From contig PCXY01000005.1 in assembly GCA_002762785.1 (NCBI GenBank), positions 124,001 through 188,000 of the forward strand: 64,000 bases of DNA, given 5' to 3'. The notes under the pieces are model-generated. The model saw only the letters and a program-made list of their open reading frames with translations. It was not told the origin of the DNA and did no database searches. Of the stretch, positions 5,185 through 64,000 are shown one piece after another (the stretch's first letter is position 1; the number at the start of each line of letters is the position of its first letter). The DNA is from Candidatus Woesearchaeota archaeon CG10_big_fil_rev_8_21_14_0_10_45_16. Its GTDB lineage: Archaea > Nanobdellota > Nanobdellia > Woesearchaeales > GW2011-AR9. The position numbers and the translations under genes are program-made.

Positions 5185-6405
5185 ATGGCCAGACGGAAGA
5201 TCAGGGAACATGACGCCAAGAAGATTATAGCGGATGCCATCCCTGAGCTGGGATTCAAGTCTGTTCTCATAACTCCGGAAACTAACGTAGAGACTCTTCC
5301 AGAGAGATTCCATTGGTTACTTCAGGAAAAGCTGACTATCAAACCCGATCAGCTGTTTGGAAAGAGAAAAAAGCATGGATTAGTCCTCATAGATGCTGCT
5401 TTTCAAGGGGTTAAAGACTTTCTTCAGCAATACCGCAACAAAGAGTTCACCATCAACGATACGGAAGATATCCTGACCCATTTCATCATCGAACCGTTTG
5501 TTCCTCACCATAAAGAATACTATCTGGCCATAACTTCAGAGAGAGATCACGACACCATCCACTTCTCGGAAACTGGGGGCATCGATATCGAAGAGAATTG
5601 GGACAATGTTAAGACTATCCAGATCCCAACCTTTACAAATATCGACGAAGTCAAACTAGAATTTCTAGATAATAGTGAGATTGAGAATAAAGAGAAGATA
5701 ACATCGTTCATAAAAGAACTTTACAAAGCTTTTAGAGATCTTGATTTCACTTATCTAGAGATCAACCCTTTCACTTTTGACAACGACGGAAAAATTGTTC
5801 TTCTCGACACTGTCGCCAGGATCGATGACTGCGCATCATTCAAAGGACAGTGGGATCTTGAATTCCCACGAGAGTTCGGCAAAAGACAATATCAAGAAGA
5901 ACTACATATCGAAGAGCTGGATAGGAAGAGTGGCGCCTCGTTGAAGCTTACTATCCTCAATCCAGACGGCAAGATCTGGAACATTCTTGGCGGTGGCGGA
6001 GCCAGTATCATCTACCTGGACATGATCACCAACCTAGGACACGGCAAGGAAATAGCCAACTATGGAGAATCGAGCGGCAACCCTTCGATGGAAGAATCGT
6101 ATGAATATGCCAGATCAATATTAGAACTGATGACTAAGAACAACGGAAAAGTCCTGTTCATCGTCGGCGGTATCGCTAACTTTACCGATGTCAGGAGCAC
6201 TTTCAAAGGCACCATCAAAGCTCTGGAAGAATATGCTGATCAGTTGAAAGACGTGACCATCTTCGTCCGCAGAGGCGGACCGCACCATGAAGAAGGATTA
6301 AGGTTGATGAAAGGAACTGGAGAGAAGCTGGGGATCAGGATGTACGTCCACGGACCGGAAACGTCGATGCCGGAGATCATCACTATCGCGGGAGGCAGCT
6401 TATGA
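5185..6405 (+). CDS. aclB: ATP-citrate lyase, small (ATP-grasp/SucC-like) subunit
   Basis: Subunit of ATP-citrate lyase, which splits citrate with CoA and ATP to acetyl-CoA and oxaloacetate. The 406 residues correspond to the N-terminal part of animal ACLY and the separate AclB of green sulfur bacteria: an ATP-grasp region ('YLEINPF' near 191) followed by a citrate-binding Rossmann region with GGGGAS, 'LGHGKEIANYGESSGNPS' and 'FVRRGGPHHEEGLR'. The last motifs are close to ACLY rather than succinyl-CoA synthetase. A TATA box 27 bases upstream implies a leaderless ATG. Overlaps the large subunit gene by ATGA. Confidence 0.95.
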   Translation: MARRKIREHDAKKIIADAIPELGFKSVLITPETNVETLPERFHWLLQEKLTIKPDQLFGKRKKHGLVLIDAAFQGVKDFLQQYRNKEFTINDTEDILTHFIIEPFVPHHKEYYLAITSERDHDTIHFSETGGIDIEENWDNVKTIQIPTFTNIDEVKLEFLDNSEIENKEKITSFIKELYKAFRDLDFTYLEINPFTFDNDGKIVLLDTVARIDDCASFKGQWDLEFPREFGKRQYQEELHIEELDRKSGASLKLTILNPDGKIWNILGGGGASIIYLDMITNLGHGKEIANYGESSGNPSMEESYEYARSILELMTKNNGKVLFIVGGIANFTDVRSTFKGTIKALEEYADQLKDVTIFVRRGGPHHEEGLRLMKGTGEKLGIRMYVHGPETSMPEIITIAGGSL

Positions 6406-8183
6406 TGGAACCATATCAATTGTTCGGCAAGCACTCGCAGACCTTCTTCTACAACCTCAAAGGCAAGCCGATCCAACATATGCTTGACTTTGATCACCTC
6501 TCTAAAAGAGAAAAGCCAAGTGTTGCAGCCATCATCCATCCAGGGAAGAGCGGCTACCATAAAGTGTTCTTCGGAAACAGAGAGATCCTCCTACCGATCT
6601 ATTCCAGCATCAAAGAGGCAGCCGAAAAACATCCTAACGTCGATTCCATCATAAACTTCGCCTCTTTTCGTTCCGCATACCAGTCATCAAAAGAAGCTTT
6701 ACAGCAGCCGACGATCAAAACCGTCGTCATCGTCGCGGAAGGCATCCCGGAACGGCAGACGAAAGAACTGATCGCGATCGCCAAACAACAGCAGAAGACC
6801 ATCATCGGCCCATCTACCGTCGGCGGCATCGTCGCTGGAAAGTTCAGGATAGGTCATGCCGGCGGCATGAACGAGAACATCTTGAGAGCCAGATTATACC
6901 GATCAGGCAGCATCGGTCTTGTCTCAAGATCTGGCGGCATGATGAACGAGTTCTTCAACATCATCTCCCGAGCAGCTGACGGCATCCATGAAGGCATCGC
7001 TATCGGCGGCGACGCTTTTCCAGGTTCAACATTATTGGACCACATGCTTCGTTATGAAGCTAATCCGGAGATCAAGATCATCGTCGCCCTCGGAGAGATC
7101 GGCGGTTCCATGGAATATGAGATCATAGAAGCCAAAAAAGCCGGAAAACTGACGAAACCTATCGTGATGTGGGTTTCAGGCACCTGCGCCAGCATCTTTC
7201 CCTGGGAAGTACAGTTCGGCCATGCAGGAGCGAAAGCTGAGTCTGGAAAAGAAACTGCGCAGGCGAAGAATGCGGCTCTGAAAGAAGCCGGCATCGTCGT
7301 CCCCGAGTCGTTTGAACAATTTGAGGCCGTTATCGGGGAAACGTTTAAAAAACACGTTCCGACTAGGCAGCCGATGGAGAATCCACTGCAGATCCCGGAA
7401 CGGAAGAATACTCATTTTACCAGCACTATCTCTGATGATCGAGGGGAGGAGCTTACCTATAATGGCATCCCTATCAGCAAGCTGATCACTGACAATTCCT
7501 CATTAGGAAAGATCATCGGACTATTGTGGTTCAAGAAAGATCTTCCTGCCGAGTTCGTCCATTTCCTTGACCTCTCTTTAGTCCTTTGCGCTGACCATGG
7601 TCCGGCAGTAGCCACAGCCCATAACGCCATGGTCACCGCCAGAGCCGGCAAAGATGTCATCAGCAGTCTCATCGCCGGGTTGACTACCATCGGCAGCCGC
7701 CATGGCGGTGCGATCGACGACGCCTGCCGCTATTTCCTGGAAGCAACTGGATCATTGAAGCCGGCTGAGTTCGTGGAACAGATGAAACGACAGGGTAAAT
7801 ACATCCCTGGCATCGGCCACCGGGTCAAGTCAAAGAAAAATCCAGATAAAAGAGTAGAGCTGCTTAAACAGTTCGCCAAAGAAAATATTTCCAGCACAAG
7901 ATATCTTGATTACGCCTTAGCGGTGGAGGAAGAGACTCTCAAGAAAGCAGAGAACCTCATCCTAAACGTGGACGGCTGCATCGCTGCCATTTTCCTTGAC
8001 CTTTTGGAAAGCTGCGGACAGTTTAACAGAGAAGAGATTGCGCAAATTACCCAGATCGGCTATATGAACGGACTGTTCGCGGTCGGTAGAAGTGTAGGGA
8101 TCATCGGCCATATCTTAGATCAGAGACGGCTGGATGAAGGATTGTATAGGCATCCTACAGACGATATCTTATACCATCAATAA
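6402..8183 (+). CDS. aclA: ATP-citrate lyase, large (SucD/citrate synthase-like) subunit
   Basis: Catalytic partner of AclB. The N-terminal half is a CoA-binding and ligase region ending in VQFGHAGA, whose His (about residue 274) is the phosphohistidine of the family. The C-terminal half, from about residue 340, is the citrate synthase-like lyase domain with ADHGPAV, 'ARAGKD', 'IGHRVKS' and a final 'LDQRRLDEGLYRHP'. Similarity to animal ACLY is obvious by eye across the whole length. All expected regions are present, so the enzyme should be active. Likely roles are cytosolic acetyl-CoA supply or a reductive citrate cycle; no other citrate-cycle gene is in this window. Confidence 0.96.
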   Translation: MMEPYQLFGKHSQTFFYNLKGKPIQHMLDFDHLSKREKPSVAAIIHPGKSGYHKVFFGNREILLPIYSSIKEAAEKHPNVDSIINFASFRSAYQSSKEALQQPTIKTVVIVAEGIPERQTKELIAIAKQQQKTIIGPSTVGGIVAGKFRIGHAGGMNENILRARLYRSGSIGLVSRSGGMMNEFFNIISRAADGIHEGIAIGGDAFPGSTLLDHMLRYEANPEIKIIVALGEIGGSMEYEIIEAKKAGKLTKPIVMWVSGTCASIFPWEVQFGHAGAKAESGKETAQAKNAALKEAGIVVPESFEQFEAVIGETFKKHVPTRQPMENPLQIPERKNTHFTSTISDDRGEELTYNGIPISKLITDNSSLGKIIGLLWFKKDLPAEFVHFLDLSLVLCADHGPAVATAHNAMVTARAGKDVISSLIAGLTTIGSRHGGAIDDACRYFLEATGSLKPAEFVEQMKRQGKYIPGIGHRVKSKKNPDKRVELLKQFAKENISSTRYLDYALAVEEETLKKAENLILNVDGCIAAIFLDLLESCGQFNREEIAQITQIGYMNGLFAVGRSVGIIGHILDQRRLDEGLYRHPTDDILYHQ

Positions 8184-56251: not shown

Positions 56252-57055
56252 ATGAAATTCAAAGACATCATCAAAACTTTACGGGACTATCAGTTCAGGA
56301 GCATCATTCATAATGCTTTCTCCCTTATGATCAGCGACGCCCACGTCGTATCGTATCGAAAGAGCGGACGCACCTGGCTGCGGCTGCTGATAGCCAAAGT
56401 TCTTTCTGAGAGTTACGGCTTCAAGAAGATAAAACTTGATACTCAGTACATGACATTGTTCAGCAAAGCGCCGAACGTCGTCTTTTCCCATGCCGGCTGC
56501 ACCATCAACGACAACAAGGTCAACTTCAAGAAACTTCTTAGGAAGAAAAAGATTGTTTTTCTATCGAGAGATCCCCGGGATGATGTCGTCTCCCTCTACA
56601 ACGATTATACCAAGAGAGATAATGTCTGCGAGATGGATCCCTCTTCGTTCATCCGGGATGAGAAGTATGGGGTGGGGATGATAGTGCGATATCTCAACAG
56701 CTGGAAAGCAGAGATGGACAAAAGACAAGGAGATTTTCTGCTGGTCCGTTATGAAGACATGAAGAAAGATGCTGGTCATGAATTAAGACGCGTACTTGAT
56801 TTTTTGAAGATCAAATATACTCCTGAAGTGATTGAGAAAGCGGTGGAATACGGCTCGTTCAGCAACATGCGGAAGATGGAAGCGACGGATACGTTTGATG
56901 ACAAGCGGATGCAGGCGAGAGATAAGGACGATATCAGCAGTTATAAGACGCGTAAGGGGAAAGTAGGCAGCCATAAAGAGGAGCTGTCTGCAGAAGATAT
57001 ATTGTATCTTGACGAGCAGGTAAAAGCGCATCTTGATCCTGAGTTCGGGTATTGA
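56252..57055 (+). CDS. PAPS-dependent sulfotransferase
   Basis: A 267-residue sulfotransferase. The 5'-phosphosulfate loop is SYRKSGRTWLRLL (about residues 35-47; family consensus YPKSGTTWL), and the 3'-phosphate site is 'FLSRDPRDDVVSLYNDY' (about 104-120), with the Arg and Ser that bind PAPS. C-terminal SYKTRKGKVGSHKE corresponds to the conserved RKGxxGDWK region. It follows a glycosyltransferase and precedes ATP sulfurylase and APS kinase genes, making a surface glycan the probable acceptor. A truncated homologue runs off the window end. Confidence 0.92.
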   Translation: MKFKDIIKTLRDYQFRSIIHNAFSLMISDAHVVSYRKSGRTWLRLLIAKVLSESYGFKKIKLDTQYMTLFSKAPNVVFSHAGCTINDNKVNFKKLLRKKKIVFLSRDPRDDVVSLYNDYTKRDNVCEMDPSSFIRDEKYGVGMIVRYLNSWKAEMDKRQGDFLLVRYEDMKKDAGHELRRVLDFLKIKYTPEVIEKAVEYGSFSNMRKMEATDTFDDKRMQARDKDDISSYKTRKGKVGSHKEELSAEDILYLDEQVKAHLDPEFGY

Positions 57056-57181: not shown

Positions 57182-59446
57182 GTGTTATATAAAGTGGTTA
57201 AAAAGATCAAGATTATCGCGACTCTAGGACCTGCAACCAATAAAGAGGAAGATATCGTCAGGGTCAAAGATAAAGGCGTCGATTTCATCCGCATCAACAT
57301 GTCGCATTCTTCACTAGAAGATATGGAGCATTTCCTGAAGATGGCTAAAAAGGTAAAGATACCATTTGTCATCGACACGGAAGGGTCACAGGTCAGGACT
57401 GGTGAATTGTCCACACCGACGGTAGACGTTTCTGAAAACAGCGAGATAAAGATCTTTGATAAGCCGATCGTCGGTGATAATACTAAGCTGTCATTAAAAC
57501 CGGAAGGTGTAGTGCCGCAGCTGGAGAAAGGCGACCTTATCCAGATCGATTTTGATACAGCTGTCCTGAGAGTCAGTGATACATCGACCATCAGTCGGGG
57601 TTACATCACGGCGAAAGTGGTCACAGCCGGTATCCTTGGAAAGAATAAAGCGGTTGTCCTGGATCGGGCCTGCGGCAGACCATTGCACCTCCCAATTCTT
57701 TCAAAGAAAGATTATGATTCCATCAAGCTGGGTATGGAGTATGGCGTCGGCCATATCGCTCTTTCCTTTGCGCGATCAGGTAAATGTCTTGATGAAGTAC
57801 GGAGAGCTACCCAGAACACCATGCAGGTCATCTCTAAGATCGAATGTGTCGATGCTCTCCGCAACCTGGATGTGATAATCGCCAAATCTGATTATCTCCT
57901 GATAGATCGGGGAGATCTCAGCAAAGAGATACCAGTCGAGAAGATCCCCTTCACTCAGAAGATCATCCTTAACAAGGCGGCTAAAGCAAAAGTGCCGGTG
58001 TTCGTCGCGACCAATCTTTTGGAAACGATGATCAATTCACGGAAGCCTACAAGGGCAGAAGTGCATGATATCCTTAACACCATCCTGGACGGGGCCGGCG
58101 GTCTGGTATTGGCTGCAGAAACGGCCATCGGCAAGCATCCGATGGAATGTATCAACATGCTCAACAAACTGATCAACCATGCTCAGCTAGCCATGGACGG
58201 CAGTGATGTTTCACAAAAAGAGGAAGAATTTGTCAGTAAGCTGTTGGCAAAGAATTATCTTCTTGATTCAGAAGTGTCGTCATCATTGATAGAGCCGCAC
58301 GGCGGCCGATTGGTCAACCGGGTGGCTGTTAAGATTCCAGAGAAGTCCTATCTTGATTCCCTGCCAAAGATAAATTTGGATGAGAACCGGCAGCGTGACG
58401 TGGAACAGATCGCCGTGGGAACCTACAGCCCCATCGAAGGCTTCATGAACAAAGACAATTTTAATTCCGTCCTTGACCGGATGAGACTTTCTAATGGATT
58501 GGTCTGGTCGCTGCCGATCTTCCTGGACGTCAGCGAGGAGAAAGCAGCAGAACTGGCTGTCGGCAGTGATGTGGCTTTAGTCGATGAGCGTGGCGAAGCG
58601 ATGGCTATCCTGAATCTTGAAGAGAAATATCATTTTGACAAGACGGAGATGGCTGAGAAATTGTATGCTACGCTTAGCGACGAGCATCCCGGCGTGAGAT
58701 GGATCTTTAACCTTAATCCGGTGATGCTGGGCGGAAAGATCACCTTACTGAGGAGAAGAGACAACGAGGATAAAGAGTACGAGATGACACCAAAGCAGAC
58801 CAGAAGCTTGTTTGAGGAGAGGGGGTGGTCTAAAGTGGTGGCGTTCCATACCCGGAACGTACCGCATAGAGGTCATGAGTTCATCCAGATGAAAGCCATG
58901 GAACGTGAAAAGTGCGACGGCTTGTTCGTCCATCCTGTTGTCGGCAAGAAGAAGCAGGGTGATTTCAATGCCAAATATATCACTAAAGCCTATGAGATCA
59001 TGACTGAGAAGTTTTACCCGCAGAACAGGGTCATCTTCGGCACTTTTTCAACCTACAGCCGTTATGCTGGACCGAGGGAAGCTTTATTTACGGCCTTATG
59101 CCGTCAGAATTTTGGCTGTAGCCATTTTGTCGTCGGCAGAGACCACACCGGGGTAAAAGATTTTTATCACCCAAAAGCATCCCATAACATCTTCGACAGG
59201 TTCCCGGACATCGGCATCAAAGCTGTCTGCTTCGATAAGGTGTTCTATTCTCCGACACTGCAGGACCATGTCCATCTGGCCGATAATCCTGAGCATCCTG
59301 AAGACGATTCCCAGCATATCAGCGGCACCCAGGCCCGAAAGATGTTCGAGGCGGGAGAACTGCCTCCTGCCTGGTTCATGCGGCCGGAGATCTCGCAGAT
59401 GATCATCGATGCGGTGAAGAGAGGCGAAGAAGTGTTTGTGAGGTGA
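57182..59446 (+). CDS. Pyruvate kinase-ATP sulfurylase fusion
   Basis: A 754-residue fusion. Residues 8-340 are pyruvate kinase: IIATLGPA, RINMSHSS, DTEGSQVRTG (Lys of the usual DTKGPEIRTG is Glu), SKIE with the catalytic Lys, RGDL, VATNLLETM, and AAETA for SGETA. The regulatory C-terminal domain is absent. Residues 365-754 are a full ATP sulfurylase: 'VGTYSPIEGFMN', TRNVPHRGHE, GRDHTGV and ISGTQARKMF. The combination makes APS and regenerates ATP from ADP and PEP. Start is GTG 57182 or, after GAGGTG, GTG 57194. The preceding TTATATAAA overlaps codons 2-4. Upstream GTCTTAAAAT may be the promoter. Confidence 0.93.
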   Translation: MLYKVVKKIKIIATLGPATNKEEDIVRVKDKGVDFIRINMSHSSLEDMEHFLKMAKKVKIPFVIDTEGSQVRTGELSTPTVDVSENSEIKIFDKPIVGDNTKLSLKPEGVVPQLEKGDLIQIDFDTAVLRVSDTSTISRGYITAKVVTAGILGKNKAVVLDRACGRPLHLPILSKKDYDSIKLGMEYGVGHIALSFARSGKCLDEVRRATQNTMQVISKIECVDALRNLDVIIAKSDYLLIDRGDLSKEIPVEKIPFTQKIILNKAAKAKVPVFVATNLLETMINSRKPTRAEVHDILNTILDGAGGLVLAAETAIGKHPMECINMLNKLINHAQLAMDGSDVSQKEEEFVSKLLAKNYLLDSEVSSSLIEPHGGRLVNRVAVKIPEKSYLDSLPKINLDENRQRDVEQIAVGTYSPIEGFMNKDNFNSVLDRMRLSNGLVWSLPIFLDVSEEKAAELAVGSDVALVDERGEAMAILNLEEKYHFDKTEMAEKLYATLSDEHPGVRWIFNLNPVMLGGKITLLRRRDNEDKEYEMTPKQTRSLFEERGWSKVVAFHTRNVPHRGHEFIQMKAMEREKCDGLFVHPVVGKKKQGDFNAKYITKAYEIMTEKFYPQNRVIFGTFSTYSRYAGPREALFTALCRQNFGCSHFVVGRDHTGVKDFYHPKASHNIFDRFPDIGIKAVCFDKVFYSPTLQDHVHLADNPEHPEDDSQHISGTQARKMFEAGELPPAWFMRPEISQMIIDAVKRGEEVFVR

Positions 59447-59454
59447 ATTAGAAC

Positions 59455-61125
59455 CTAATCTTTGCTTTTACTTTTCGATTTCTTTGATTTGGACATCTTT
59501 ATCTGATCTCCCTGTATCTCTCGTGGTTTCCCTAAACTGAGTATTGTCTTGACGACTCCTTTAAAATCTTGTCCTTCTACCAGGTAGGTGATACAAGGGT
59601 CTTTTTCTTTGTAGAGTTGGATCATCTTTTTGCTGGGATTAAAACAGATCCTGGTTTCTGTCGCTTTAAGCATCGGGATATCCGAATAACCATCACCGAC
59701 GCCGATGCTTCCTTCCTCCGGGATGGAATAACGTTCCATGATGTATTTAACGATATAATATTTAACGTCATCATGGAGAACATTTTTTTCGGCAACTTCG
59801 CCGGTGATGATCCCTTTCTTTTCATCAAGCACATTACAATAGATCTCGTCGATGCCAAGTTCTTTACATATCGGCGTGACTATCTGGGAGAAACCTGAAG
59901 AGATAGCAACAAGGTAGTACCCGTTATCCTTAAGTTCTTTGATGCCGGCCTTGACGTTATCGATCAACCGAAGATTTGGTATGAACGCTTTGATGTCGCT
60001 TACTTTAAGACCTTTCAGCAGCTTTGCGCTTTCGATGATAGCCTCTTGCATACTCAACGTTCCCTCAATCTGTCTGATGATAAATTCCAACACTTCTTTC
60101 TGCTTGCCCATCAGGTTCGCAAGTTCTACCGTAGTGTGATTCTGTGTGAAGATACGATTGACATCAAAAGCGATAAGTTTCTTTGGTTTGTCCTCGCTGA
60201 GAGATAGTAGCAGATGATCTTGTTCTTTAGGAAAGTCGCCGTCCTCTTTGAGAGAGACTGTAGTTGTCATAAGGGATAAAAAGTGCTGTTTGGTCTGTTT
60301 GATAGTTTCGTAGGAATTTATGAAGATACCGCCGCTGGTAAGACCGTTTGAATTTTTTAAGAACATGAATAGAGCATCGCCTTCTTCATCATTTTCTATA
60401 AGGGCGAAATTAAAGGGTGTTGGGGTCTTGCGAAGATCGATATTCTTATTCTGGATAGTTTTCTTTTTGGTGATAGCCAAGATCTCTTGTAACTCTTCTT
60501 TGATAAGCTCGCGGTTCTTATATTTTTTTTGAAGCCTGTGCTGAAGAGCCTCTGTCCTATAAGGAGAGAGACAGAACAAAGAGAAAGAAGAATCATGTAT
60601 CTTGTCGGTAAGTGTCTCAATATACGCAGCTTCCTGGGCACTGTTACATAAAGCGAAAGAGTAAGCGTACTGAGGGAAGTCGCAGCCGATGTAAAAAGCG
60701 CTGGCATTTTTCAGATAGAACACCAACTGTTTATATAGTTCAGCTTCTGTAAGGTAGGTTACAGAGATAGAATTTGGCTTGATGTATTTTTCAAAGAAAG
60801 CCTGAGTGTCGGAAGCAAAATTTGTTATCTCATCCATCTCTTGGGCTAATTCTTTCTTCTTGGCATATATCACTTCCTGGATGCCCCTTAAGTTCAGAAG
60901 ATATTGAGAATTCTCAGTCTTCATGATTACCCCTTTCTCCTGAAGGATCCGTAGCTGGGTAAAAAGGTTCGATTTTTGGATAAACCCCTTGGTCTCTTTA
61001 AAATACTCGCGTTCTATCACGACCGGATTGGTCGGGAGCTTATTCTCTTGAAGCTGAAAGATTATCCCGATTATACTGGTCTGCTGGCTGGTCAACTGCA
61101 GCCATCTCGCTATCTTGGGGATCAT
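59455..61125 (-). CDS. Winged-helix regulator-like N-terminus fused to SerB-like HAD domain
   Basis: Residues 1-75 resemble a winged helix ('FTQLRILQEKGVIMK' as the recognition region), about 90-290 an unrecognised TrmB-like or phospholipase-like sensor region, and 310-530 a HAD domain of the phosphoserine phosphatase type. Motif I is FDVNRIFT, with Asn at the second Asp; 'SSGFSQI' is motif II and 'GVGDGYSDIPML' motif IV. A Lys/Ser-rich tail follows. The ORF-track start at 61149 is inside the TATA box TTTATAAA; ATG 61125, 27 bases on, is preferred. Divergent from another HAD gene. May be a regulator that senses a phosphate ester. Confidence 0.72.
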   Translation of the reverse strand: MIPKIARWLQLTSQQTSIIGIIFQLQENKLPTNPVVIEREYFKETKGFIQKSNLFTQLRILQEKGVIMKTENSQYLLNLRGIQEVIYAKKKELAQEMDEITNFASDTQAFFEKYIKPNSISVTYLTEAELYKQLVFYLKNASAFYIGCDFPQYAYSFALCNSAQEAAYIETLTDKIHDSSFSLFCLSPYRTEALQHRLQKKYKNRELIKEELQEILAITKKKTIQNKNIDLRKTPTPFNFALIENDEEGDALFMFLKNSNGLTSGGIFINSYETIKQTKQHFLSLMTTTVSLKEDGDFPKEQDHLLLSLSEDKPKKLIAFDVNRIFTQNHTTVELANLMGKQKEVLEFIIRQIEGTLSMQEAIIESAKLLKGLKVSDIKAFIPNLRLIDNVKAGIKELKDNGYYLVAISSGFSQIVTPICKELGIDEIYCNVLDEKKGIITGEVAEKNVLHDDVKYYIVKYIMERYSIPEEGSIGVGDGYSDIPMLKATETRICFNPSKKMIQLYKEKDPCITYLVEGQDFKGVVKTILSLGKPREIQGDQIKMSKSKKSKSKSKD

Positions 61126-61148
61126 TTTGTTTCTACTTTGGAGTGGCA

Positions 61149-61156
61149 TTTATAAA
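61149..61156 (-). promoter_or_regulatory. TATA box deciding the start of the HTH-HAD gene
   Basis: TTTATAAA touches the ORF-track start at 61149 and is centred 27 bases from ATG 61125, which is therefore preferred. Confidence 0.65.
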
Positions 61157-61242: not shown

Positions 61243-61291
61243 CACCTGGTTACGTCCCGCGTTTTTAATGCAATTCCATTCCAGATGGTGG

Positions 61292-62119
61292 ATGACAACA
61301 ACAACAAAACTTGTTTCATCCGACCTTAACGGAACTTTGGTGCATCAACACACTATGAGCGACATGATCAGGATATATCTTGGTCAGGAGAATTTTGAGA
61401 AAGCTAATGCTGTCTTCAAGAAGCAGACTTCGGGAGAAGCCAGCATGGAAGCAGCGTTCGGCAACGCCGGCCCTTTGACTAGAGGATTAACTTTACGGCA
61501 GGCCCTGGAATACACGCGGGACCATATGAGATTCGTGGACGGATTTCAGCCATTTGTCGACGAACTGGCAGATAGGCAGACCCCTTTCATCATCAATTCT
61601 ACAGGCTACTCAGTCACCATCCACGCCATCAGGGCTCAGCTGGGCCGGGATAAGATCGCTGGACAGATCGGCAACCGCCTTGAATTCGGCCAGGATGCTG
61701 ATCCACAGGCAGTATTGAGGGAAGATGAGCTGGAGAATCTGGTCTTTGATTATTTTGCATCCGGAAAAACCACCGATAGAGCTTATGATCGTATCAAAGC
61801 GACAGGTGTCGTCCATCTAGGAATAGTAGATGAAGCGGCCAAAGCCTCGCTGTTATTGGATCGTGTGGCGGCAGAATTTCCGGGCATTAATCCGACGGAA
61901 ATTGTCCACATCGGCGATACTTACGGAGATTTCGGCGGCATCTCGGGAATAGCTAAAGCTGGAGGCACAGGGATCGCTTTCAATTACAATGGTATTCTAG
62001 AAACCAAGCTAAAAGAAGAGATCGCTCAAGATCTTTCATTAGGCGCGCTGATCCATTTCGTCGATCCAAAGGGACCGGACTGCGACATGCGAAGGGTGCT
62101 GCCGATAGTATACAAATAG
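61292..62119 (+). CDS. HAD-superfamily hydrolase with DxN motif I
   Basis: A 275-residue HAD protein with motif I SSDLNGTL (Asn instead of the second Asp), a Ser/Thr motif II in 'FIINSTGYS', and motif IV 'HIGDTYGDFGGIS'. A helical cap lies between residues 25 and 95. The track start at 61268 is eight codons upstream; the ATG at 61292 lies 28 bases from GTTTTTAATG, matching the spacing seen elsewhere, so I prefer it. Placed between the PAPS-making genes. Substrate unknown; the missing acid/base Asp suggests slow or non-phosphatase activity. The gene ends in a hairpin terminator. Confidence 0.78.
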   Translation: MTTTTKLVSSDLNGTLVHQHTMSDMIRIYLGQENFEKANAVFKKQTSGEASMEAAFGNAGPLTRGLTLRQALEYTRDHMRFVDGFQPFVDELADRQTPFIINSTGYSVTIHAIRAQLGRDKIAGQIGNRLEFGQDADPQAVLREDELENLVFDYFASGKTTDRAYDRIKATGVVHLGIVDEAAKASLLLDRVAAEFPGINPTEIVHIGDTYGDFGGISGIAKAGGTGIAFNYNGILETKLKEEIAQDLSLGALIHFVDPKGPDCDMRRVLPIVYK

Positions 62120-62240: not shown

Positions 62241-63563
62241 ATGGGAAAAGTCGTCTGGTTTACGGGGTTGAGCGGTTCTGGAAAGACCACCATCGCCCTC
62301 AGATTAAAGAAAGAACTAGAGAAGCAGGACAAGACCGTCCACATCCTTGACGGCGACGTGGTGAGGAACGAGCTCCATAAAGACCTCGGCTTCTCCCGGG
62401 AAGACATCAGAGAGAACAACCGACTGATAGCCTTGCTGGCAAAGAAGTATCAAGATTCTTCAGATTTTGTTTTGGTCCCTATCATCTCACCATACCGGGA
62501 AGACCGAGCCATGGCCAGATCGATTATCGGCCCCAGTTTCATGGAGCTCTATGTCAACTGTTCTTTAGACGGCTGCATCAAGAGAGATGTCAAAGGCTTG
62601 TATCAGAAGGCTCTAGCCGGCGAGATCGACAATTTAATCGGCGTGGCTGACTCGAATCCGTATGAAGCGCCGGAAAATCCTGAACTGGAGATCAATACGG
62701 AAAAGAATGATCTTGACACTAGCATCGACCTGATCAGCAGCAGATTGCTGAAAGATAAGCTGCCTTTTGAAACTTCTTTCCCCGAGATAAAGATGGCGAT
62801 AGAAGGCATCCTGGAAGCGGGAAAAGCAGTCATGGAGATCTATAGTCGTGATTACGATATCTCCAGAGATAAAGATGGAGAACCGACCACAGAAGCCGAT
62901 AAGAAAAGCAATCAGATCCTGATGAACGCACTGGGAAAGACCGGCCACATGATCCTCTCAGAAGAAGATGTCAATGATGAAAAAAGATTAGGAGAAGAAT
63001 ATGTCTGGATCGTCGATCCCATCGATGGCACTTCTGATTTTGTCAACAAGACCGGCGAGTTCACGATCATGGTAGGGCTGGTAAAAGATCACGTGCCGGT
63101 GCTCGGTCTGGTCCTGTGGCCTCCCCAGAAGATCCTATTCATCGGTGAGAAAGGCAAAGGAGCGTATAAGCTCGAGAAAGGAGAATGGCAGAAGATACGG
63201 TGCAGCAGTAAGACCGATCTTAAAGAATGCCGCCTGATGAGGAGCCGACACCATCTCTCAGAGGAGGAACAACGGGTCGCTTCAGAACTCGGCATCACCA
63301 TGGCCGCGGCCAGAGGCAGCAGCCTGAAAGCCATGGATATCGCTCAAGGTTCAGGAGACCTCTATTTCACATTAACTTCAAAGATCAAGCAGTGGGATAC
63401 CTGCGCTTCATACTGCATCCTTACCGAAGCTGGAGGAAAGATGACAGATATCTTTGGAAATGCTCTTCAATATAATACTACTAAAGTAAACCACGAAAAT
63501 GGGATACTGGCGACAAACGGGATTGTCCATGAAAACTTTATAAAAAACTGCCAGAGACATTGA
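62241..63563 (+). CDS. APS kinase-PAP phosphatase (CysC-CysQ) fusion
   Basis: A 440-residue fusion. Residues 1-175 are adenylylsulfate kinase: GLSGSGKT (Walker A), LDGDVVRNELHKDLGFS, 'REDIRENNRL' and 'PIISPYREDR', all family hallmarks. Residues 180-435 are a Mg-dependent, Li-sensitive-type 3'(2'),5'-bisphosphate nucleotidase (CysQ): LSEEDV, WIVDPIDGTSDFV and 'QWDTCASYCILTEAGG', with all metal ligands. It makes PAPS from APS and clears the PAP left by sulfotransferases. TATA box TTTTTAAAGC at 62211-62220 gives a leaderless ATG at 62241; an out-of-frame ATG at 62234 is not used. Confidence 0.94.
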   Translation: MGKVVWFTGLSGSGKTTIALRLKKELEKQDKTVHILDGDVVRNELHKDLGFSREDIRENNRLIALLAKKYQDSSDFVLVPIISPYREDRAMARSIIGPSFMELYVNCSLDGCIKRDVKGLYQKALAGEIDNLIGVADSNPYEAPENPELEINTEKNDLDTSIDLISSRLLKDKLPFETSFPEIKMAIEGILEAGKAVMEIYSRDYDISRDKDGEPTTEADKKSNQILMNALGKTGHMILSEEDVNDEKRLGEEYVWIVDPIDGTSDFVNKTGEFTIMVGLVKDHVPVLGLVLWPPQKILFIGEKGKGAYKLEKGEWQKIRCSSKTDLKECRLMRSRHHLSEEEQRVASELGITMAAARGSSLKAMDIAQGSGDLYFTLTSKIKQWDTCASYCILTEAGGKMTDIFGNALQYNTTKVNHENGILATNGIVHENFIKNCQRH

Positions 63564-63810: not shown

Positions 63811-64000
63811 TTATCGGTATCCAAAATCGGGATGCAGTTCTGCCTCAAGTCTACCATTAAGATAAGAGATATCAGCAGGTGACAGATAATCGTTATAACC
63901 TCCAACTTTGGCTTTCCTTACTTTATATGATTCAACGTCATTTTTGTTTTTTGCTCGAAGACGGTAATCTATAAATGAATCCGATCTTTCCATCTTTCGC
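63811..64000 (-). CDS. Second sulfotransferase, C-terminal part, runs off window end
   Basis: The track lists a 60-residue ORF from an internal Met, but the frame stays open to base 64000 (Arg-Lys precede the Met). The segment RKMERSDSF...SYKVRKAKVGG...LHPDFGYR aligns without gaps worth noting to the end of the sulfotransferase at 56252 (RKMEATDTF...SYKTRKGKVGS...LDPEFGY). It is therefore the 3' end of a paralogous sulfotransferase transcribed into the window. The N-terminal PAPS sites lie outside, so activity cannot be judged. Confidence 0.85.
   Translation of the reverse strand, partial: RKMERSDSFIDYRLRAKNKNDVESYKVRKAKVGGYNDYLSPADISYLNGRLEAELHPDFGYR

Follow-up and report, generated by a model that had tools for sequence, protein, structure and literature searches.

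A pyruvate kinase domain and an ATP sulfurylase on one polypeptide

What is a truncated pyruvate kinase (PK) doing beside an enzyme of sulfate activation? The question arises in the window, by which we mean the whole stretch of 64,000 nucleotides of woesearchaeotal DNA analysed here, where an earlier note had described a stripped-down PK at 57182-58230, with a changed active-site Lys, serving a sulfurylase partner. The PK domain is indeed present, but these coordinates cover only the N-terminal part of a longer gene and cut it in half. A single uninterrupted reading frame on the forward strand (57182-59446) encodes 754 residues, in which a PK barrel and B domain run on into the PUA_2 and catalytic domains of a complete Sat-type ATP sulfurylase (SAT), so that the supposed partner is the same polypeptide (Table 1).

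Table 1 Features of the fusion gene and its surroundings in the window
Feature	Positions	Strand	Details
Sulfotransferase gene, probable PAPS user	56252..57055	+	PF00685, E 3.3e-25
PK-ATP sulfurylase fusion gene	57182..59446	+	754 aa, GTG start; alternative in-frame GTG possible at 57194
PK barrel and B domain, residues 7-324	57200..58153	+	PF00224, E 4e-63
DTEGSQVRTG loop, residues 65-74 (rabbit 112-121)	57374..57403	+	E at 114, S at 116, Q at 117
IDFD, residues 122-125, in place of canonical (V/I)DDG of B domain	57545..57556	+	Phe at E. coli 127 in 54/55 fused PKs
SKIE: catalytic Lys K219 (rabbit K269), metal ligand E221	57833..57844	+	K269 in 56/57 fused sequences
DRGD, residues 242-245: D242 is rabbit A292 changed to D, a family hallmark; D245 is metal-binding Asp295	57905..57916	+	D292 in 55/55 fused PKs
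Interdomain linker, residues 325-369	58154..58288	+	Lowest confidence within model
PUA_2 domain of ATP sulfurylase, residues 370-524	58289..58753	+	E 3.6e-48
ATP-sulfurylase catalytic domain, residues 532-743	58775..59410	+	E 7.8e-77; TIGR00339; Z 51 to 8a8g
HTRNVPHRGH, residues 556-565: His for sulfate-binding Gln of QxRN, HxxH intact	58847..58876	+	HxRN in 58/59 scored fused SATs
HAD-family hydrolase	61268..62119	+	Pfam; linked to fusion also in G015 and L061
APS kinase fused to CysQ-type PAP phosphatase	62241..63563	+	TIGR00455 189.5 bits vs cutoff 138.7; TIGR01331 177 bits, below cutoff 228.8
Second sulfotransferase-like gene, 3' end, runs off window	63814..64000	-	L032:11815-12711 (-)

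The kinase half is a PK-family domain and not a stand-alone pyruvate kinase. It scores 213.9 bits against PF00224 in Pfam, where the curated cutoff is 30, and it stays below the NCBIfam cutoff of the whole-length PK equivalog TIGR01064 (266.7 versus 306.4 bits) because the last third of PK is missing from the fusion. A Pfam search of the 754-aa chain detected neither PK_C (PF02887), in agreement with the C-terminal regulatory domain having been reported as missing, nor a pyrophosphatase domain. The kinase had also been called unregulated; the absence of PK_C is observed, and a loss of regulation is something we could only infer from it. The second half exceeds the NCBIfam cutoff for sulfate adenylyltransferase (TIGR00339, 377 versus 323 bits).

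The nearest solved structures are the archaeal ATP sulfurylase 8a8d and E. coli PykF. An AlphaFold2 model of the 754-aa fusion, built on 46 fused sequences, gives a confident two-domain fold (mean pLDDT 91.1, pTM 0.84). In a structural comparison, of the kind that the earlier note proposed for the kinase, the predicted PK half matches PKM2 and PykF (Z about 37) and the sulfurylase half matches 8a8g (Z 51).

The kinase active site

The loop motif had been read correctly as DTEGSQVRTG, and R37, N39, S41, K219, E221, R243 and D245 are all present, among them the catalytic residues said to be retained; in rabbit numbering, the window protein keeps R72, N74, S76, D112, R119, K269, E271, D295 and T327. 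The replaced Lys, however, is not the catalytic one. It corresponds to rabbit K114, in the short loop between the A and B domains, while the catalytic K269 is kept as K219. Position 114 of PK naturally co-varies with 113, 117 and 120, and the rabbit K114Q enzyme has a kcat of 805 s-1 against 703 s-1 for the wild type, with Km values two- to threefold higher for PEP (0.15 versus 0.063 mM) and MgADP (0.54 versus 0.23 mM) (PMC8835810); K114E was not among the mutants seen in that study. Among fused proteins the position also varies (Glu in 48, Gln in 5 and Ala in 1; n = 54). Given the natural co-variation and the active K114Q enzyme, the re-tuning that had been ascribed to the Lys-to-Glu change finds no support. 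A loss of catalysis through this change was likewise rejected, since the site is K114 rather than K269 and rabbit K114Q is active.

Other positions distinguish the fused kinases more sharply. The loop pattern E/Q/A114, S/A116 and Q117 is clade-wide, with Gln replacing E117 in 53 of 54 fused PKs. Asp occupies position 292 in all 55 fused PKs, against Ala in 33/33 canonical PKs extracted with an HMM; N328 replaces Gln in 55/55, and the second Asp of DDG (E. coli 127) is Phe in 54/55, turning DDG into DFD. Each of these four changes is more conserved across the family than the one at K114, and all were missing from the earlier list. Ser361 is lost in most fused PKs (Ala in 41/55). Some re-tuning may yet reside at the fixed positions 117, 292, 328 and 361 and at the DFD motif; these conserved substitutions lie close to the active site and could have altered the PK activity or abolished it. 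A triple fusion, G042 (L037:8842-11634), has Glu at catalytic Lys 269 (AEIE for SKIE) and is possibly a kinase-dead member.

Such changes lend some credit to the view that the PK half does little catalysis and serves regulation or structure instead, as a PEP/ADP sensor or an oligomerisation scaffold. Fungal ATP sulfurylase offers a precedent in its APS-kinase-like domain, which is inactive and has a known regulatory role (PMC2275785). The loss of the catalytic Lys in G042 and a degenerate 235-aa PK beside an APS kinase-sulfurylase in G222 point the same way. Nevertheless, almost all members, whatever their phylum, keep every residue for phosphoryl transfer and metal binding: the readable fused sequences show no variation at R72, N74, S76, D112, R119, E271 and D295, while K269 is present in 56/57, and T327 in 55/57 with Ser in the other two. 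The PK half is also more constrained than the SAT half in rhizobia (below). We consider a non-catalytic role unlikely, without dismissing it.

The loop further bears on cation dependence. PK loops fall into a K+-dependent type (T113/K114/E117/T120) and a K+-independent type (L113/Q114/K117/(L,I,V)120) (PMC8835810), and the window's T/E/Q/T at 113/114/117/120 fits neither. Because crenarchaeal PKs with a neutral residue at 117 are K+-independent (PMC4374775), we predict by analogy that the fused kinase site is K+-independent too. Separately, clade-specific changes at PK residues 69, 124 and 300 fall on E. coli PykF P70, D127 and A301, where the variants P70Q, D127N and A301S/T have been crystallised; A301S, at the A/A' interface, reached fixation in three of the populations in the Lenski long-term experiment (PMC5406848).

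Distribution and evolution of the fusion

A search of 145 relatives, together with a scan of GTDB genomes using an alignment of fused sequences, found the PK-sulfurylase fusion in 59 loci across many bacterial and archaeal phyla, 56 of them distinct once three contigs counted twice are set aside. Seven other genomes among the relatives carry it, and three encode a PK-sulfurylase-APS kinase triple fusion of 913-933 aa. A predicted model of one triple fusion has three ordered domains (pLDDT 88.7, pTM 0.74). The archaeal fusions from the GTDB scan belong to Woesearchaeota, Pacearchaeota and Nanohalarchaeota. The others come from many Patescibacteria and from Omnitrophota, Elusimicrobia, Chloroflexi, Latescibacterota, Melioribacteraceae, [Flexibacter] sp. 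ATCC 35103, Deltaproteobacteria, Nitrospina, Rhodospirillaceae, Planctomycetes, Methylococcaceae, Mesorhizobium, Ensifer and Nitratireductor, and two megaplasmids of Ensifer/Sinorhizobium bear the fusion as well.

Most copies come from metagenome assemblies, which might raise the suspicion of a chimeric contig or a chance reading frame. It is neither, since dozens of genomes contain the fusion, at 38-68% identity. The same junction stands in dozens of independent assemblies and on the two plasmids, and in complete or cultured genomes including Mesorhizobium amorphae, Lacipirellula limnantheis and [Flexibacter] sp. ATCC 35103; an artefact is already refuted and has next to no probability left.

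The fused PK domains form a single clade of 55 fused and 1 free sequence (SH-aLRT 100; 100/100 in a second tree), and the trees are therefore most simply read as a single origin with extensive horizontal transfer afterwards. Purifying selection in the rhizobial copies weighs more heavily on the PK half (dN/dS 0.03-0.11) than on the sulfurylase half (0.06-0.18), some synonymous distances being near saturation, and it does so even though these rhizobia encode a further PK. Apparent splits or losses occur in L108, L098 and L104, in the form of a clade PK without a nearby sulfurylase and clade sulfurylases without an in-frame PK.

Genomic context links the fusion to sulfation

In the window, the sulfotransferase gene is followed by the fusion gene, the HAD hydrolase and the APS kinase-CysQ gene, whose product is predicted to make PAPS and remove PAP. 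Of the 59 loci, 10 encode APS kinase on the fusion chain itself, 23 have its gene no more than 700 bp away and 4 carry it at another place in the locus; in 26 of the 59, some on cut contigs, none was found on the chain or within 700 bp. The commonest Pfam families among 149 neighbours of fused genes are Sulfotransfer_3 (14), Sulfotransfer_1 (11) and APS_kinase (9), followed by methyltransferases and by sugar-nucleotide and polysaccharide genes. By comparison, the commonest among 124 neighbours of free sulfurylases are PAPS_reduct (13), APS_kinase (7) and sulfite reductase (6), and sulfotransferase families are absent from the 25 most frequent Pfams of that set. Dissimilatory or assimilatory sulfate reduction was rejected as a role for the fusion, whose neighbours, unlike those of free sulfurylases, do not fit it.

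Several other genes lie nearby. The reverse-strand gene at 59455-61149 encodes 564 aa; its C-terminal part is a SerB-like HAD phosphatase, and by eye the N-terminal half resembles a DNA-binding regulator. Large proteins near the fusion in two genomes (L032:12801-15689, just past the window end, and L035:11888-16432) join a cytidylyltransferase, a PPDK/PEP-synthase ATP-binding domain and a PEP-utiliser mobile domain, and a class I glutamine-amidotransferase-like gene (by eye) adjoins the one in L032.

Other pyruvate kinases in the host genomes

A check for a second full-length PK, as the earlier note had suggested, found none in the window genome, nor in the order's other genomes with the fusion, where G056 alone gave an additional weak match. 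The fusion thus carries the sole PK of this genome and might also carry its glycolytic flux. Taken with the enolase encoded there, this would suit an explanation by accident, with the PK half no more than the glycolytic enzyme of the cell and its closeness to the sulfurylase devoid of functional meaning. Elsewhere, on the other hand, 14 of the 25 fusion-bearing genomes reached through the loci hold a separate full-length canonical PK, as does G109 besides its SAT-adjacent PK. Neither half was matched in 108 of the 145 relatives, and PK therefore seems dispensable there. Moreover, PK is linked to SAT in 13/13 SAT-bearing genomes of the order (among 352 genomes), fused in 8 and adjacent in 5, and the neighbours of fused genes are sulfation genes. 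An accidental fusion is accordingly improbable. As for the idea that the kinase serves only the sulfurylase, the fusion, its recurrence and the separate full-length PKs in 14/25 genomes speak for it, but its being the sole PK here does not.

The SAT-adjacent PKs fall outside the fused clade, yet share D292; tree support for grouping fused and adjacent PKs against canonical ones is 80/90, which is not decisive. Three of them (L038:9649-11346, L040:9024-10730 and L167:4617-6323) bear an N-terminal extension of ~90 aa that by eye looks like a winged-helix DNA-binding domain, with no Pfam match in L038 at 1e-4. In G222 (L166:5211-5915 and 5927-7714), an APS kinase-sulfurylase of reverse domain order lies beside the degenerate 235-aa PK, which has no B domain.

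The window genome also encodes a PEP synthase-like enzyme and a membrane pyrophosphatase, and has a weak DHHA2 match; soluble pyrophosphatase of PF00719 was not found in 10 of 11 genomes. A missing pyrophosphatase was dropped as the reason for the fusion, given the membrane enzyme and the weak DHHA2 match.

A substituted sulfate site

The window sulfurylase has the HRGH (HxxH) and GRDH motifs, and in place of the QxRN motif with its sulfate-binding Gln it has HTRN (residues 556-559; 58847-58858). In A. vinosum this Gln (Gln 199) binds the sulfate of APS (PMC3779200). HxRN is found in 58 of 59 scored fused SATs and QTRN in 28/28 free SATs outside the clade. The protein is assigned to the Sat type, with one conserved site substituted and the other tested features present; an oxyanion other than sulfate is possible in principle, given His for Gln.

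The two active sites have switched in a coordinated, clade-specific way (HxRN in SAT; A292D, Q328N and DF in PK). This speaks for a changed reaction, the PK half using another acceptor or nucleoside diphosphate, or coupling PEP directly to sulfate activation through the sulfurylase His. The APS kinase and sulfotransferase neighbours instead point to ordinary APS and PAPS, and the unfused PKs next to SAT go with sulfurylases of the usual QTRN type, so that a link to PK does not require the His. We give a changed reaction little chance.

A proposed role in PEP-fuelled PAPS formation

Sulfate activation is thermodynamically uphill, and cells assist it with pyrophosphatase or GTP hydrolysis. We consider it probable, with appreciable room for doubt, that the fusion is an enzyme dedicated to PAPS formation for sulfation, in which the kinase half regenerates ATP at the expense of PEP. 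The sulfurylase half would convert ATP and sulfate to APS and PPi, and APS kinase, from the nearby gene in the window or on the same chain in ten relatives, would turn APS into PAPS and ADP. The PK half would then use PEP to recharge that ADP to ATP beside both ATP-consuming steps, removing inhibitory ADP and pulling the unfavourable pathway forward. As the sulfurylase yields PPi and not ADP, the benefit of PK depends on APS kinase. PAPS would feed sulfotransferases, probably decorating surface glycans, while the CysQ domain would clear PAP. The architecture, its conservation, the linkage in the genome, the kept catalytic residues and the purifying selection are observed; the PEP:ADP activity, the local recycling or channelling of ATP and the identity of the sulfated product are what we infer. 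Human PAPSS1 offers a parallel in vitro, where practically no PAPS formed unless PK and PEP were supplied, and ADP built up in their absence (PMC9885120).

A more ambitious version is a widespread energy-coupled sulfate-activating enzyme, with PEP cleavage linked to APS/PAPS on one chain, channelled ATP/ADP, a probably K+-independent kinase and a sulfate site re-made with His for Gln. We offer it tentatively and doubt it more than we believe it; if true, it would join pyrophosphatase fusion and CysN GTPase coupling as a third way in which nature overcomes the unfavourable equilibrium of the sulfurylase.

The fusion points to PEP as another driving force for sulfate activation, in hosts that range from tiny-genome archaea and Patescibacteria to rhizobia, planctomycetes and a cultured [Flexibacter] isolate, and in which the molecules to be sulfated are apparently those of the surface. 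In uncultured lineages the fusion also makes a sulfation gene cluster recognisable. Biocatalysis, where PK and PEP are already added by hand, may gain from it a natural PAPS enzyme that recharges itself.

Comparison with known systems

Known fusion partners of ATP sulfurylase are APS kinase, pyrophosphatase and APS reductase (PMC2275785, PMC2705460, PMC4921024). We found no description of a PK-sulfurylase fusion in the open-access literature, gene-fusion surveys included, although absence there is not proof.

The bifunctional PAPS synthases (human PAPSS1/2; Aquifex 2gks) likewise join a Sat-type sulfurylase to another PAPS-forming enzyme. The window fusion differs in its N-terminal PK, with APS kinase encoded by a separate gene, where it is joined to a CysQ-type domain; the arrangement of PAPS synthase, in which a single chain carries both sulfurylase and APS kinase, is not seen in the window but occurs in ten relatives, where APS kinase is C-terminal. 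The sulfurylase-APS kinase-pyrophosphatase fusions of diatoms, oomycetes and haptophytes similarly include a third enzyme that should pull activation forward (PMC2275785, PMC2705460). Those proteins hydrolyse PPi, whereas the window fusion has no pyrophosphatase domain and would recharge ADP with PEP. The CysDN/CysNC complex also draws on an extra energy source, GTP hydrolysis, but the CysD and CysN proteins are unrelated, and the extra source for the window fusion would be PEP.

With classical pyruvate kinases (PykF, PKM), the kinase half has the barrel, the B domain and the catalytic residues in common; it differs in lacking PK_C, in K114E, E117Q, A292D, Q328N and DDG to DFD, and in belonging to a separate clade. 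Engineered PAPS recycling cascades that use PK and PEP (PMC9885120) perform the chemistry proposed here. Those are man-made mixes of separate enzymes, whereas in the fusion evolution would have put the enzymes on one chain.
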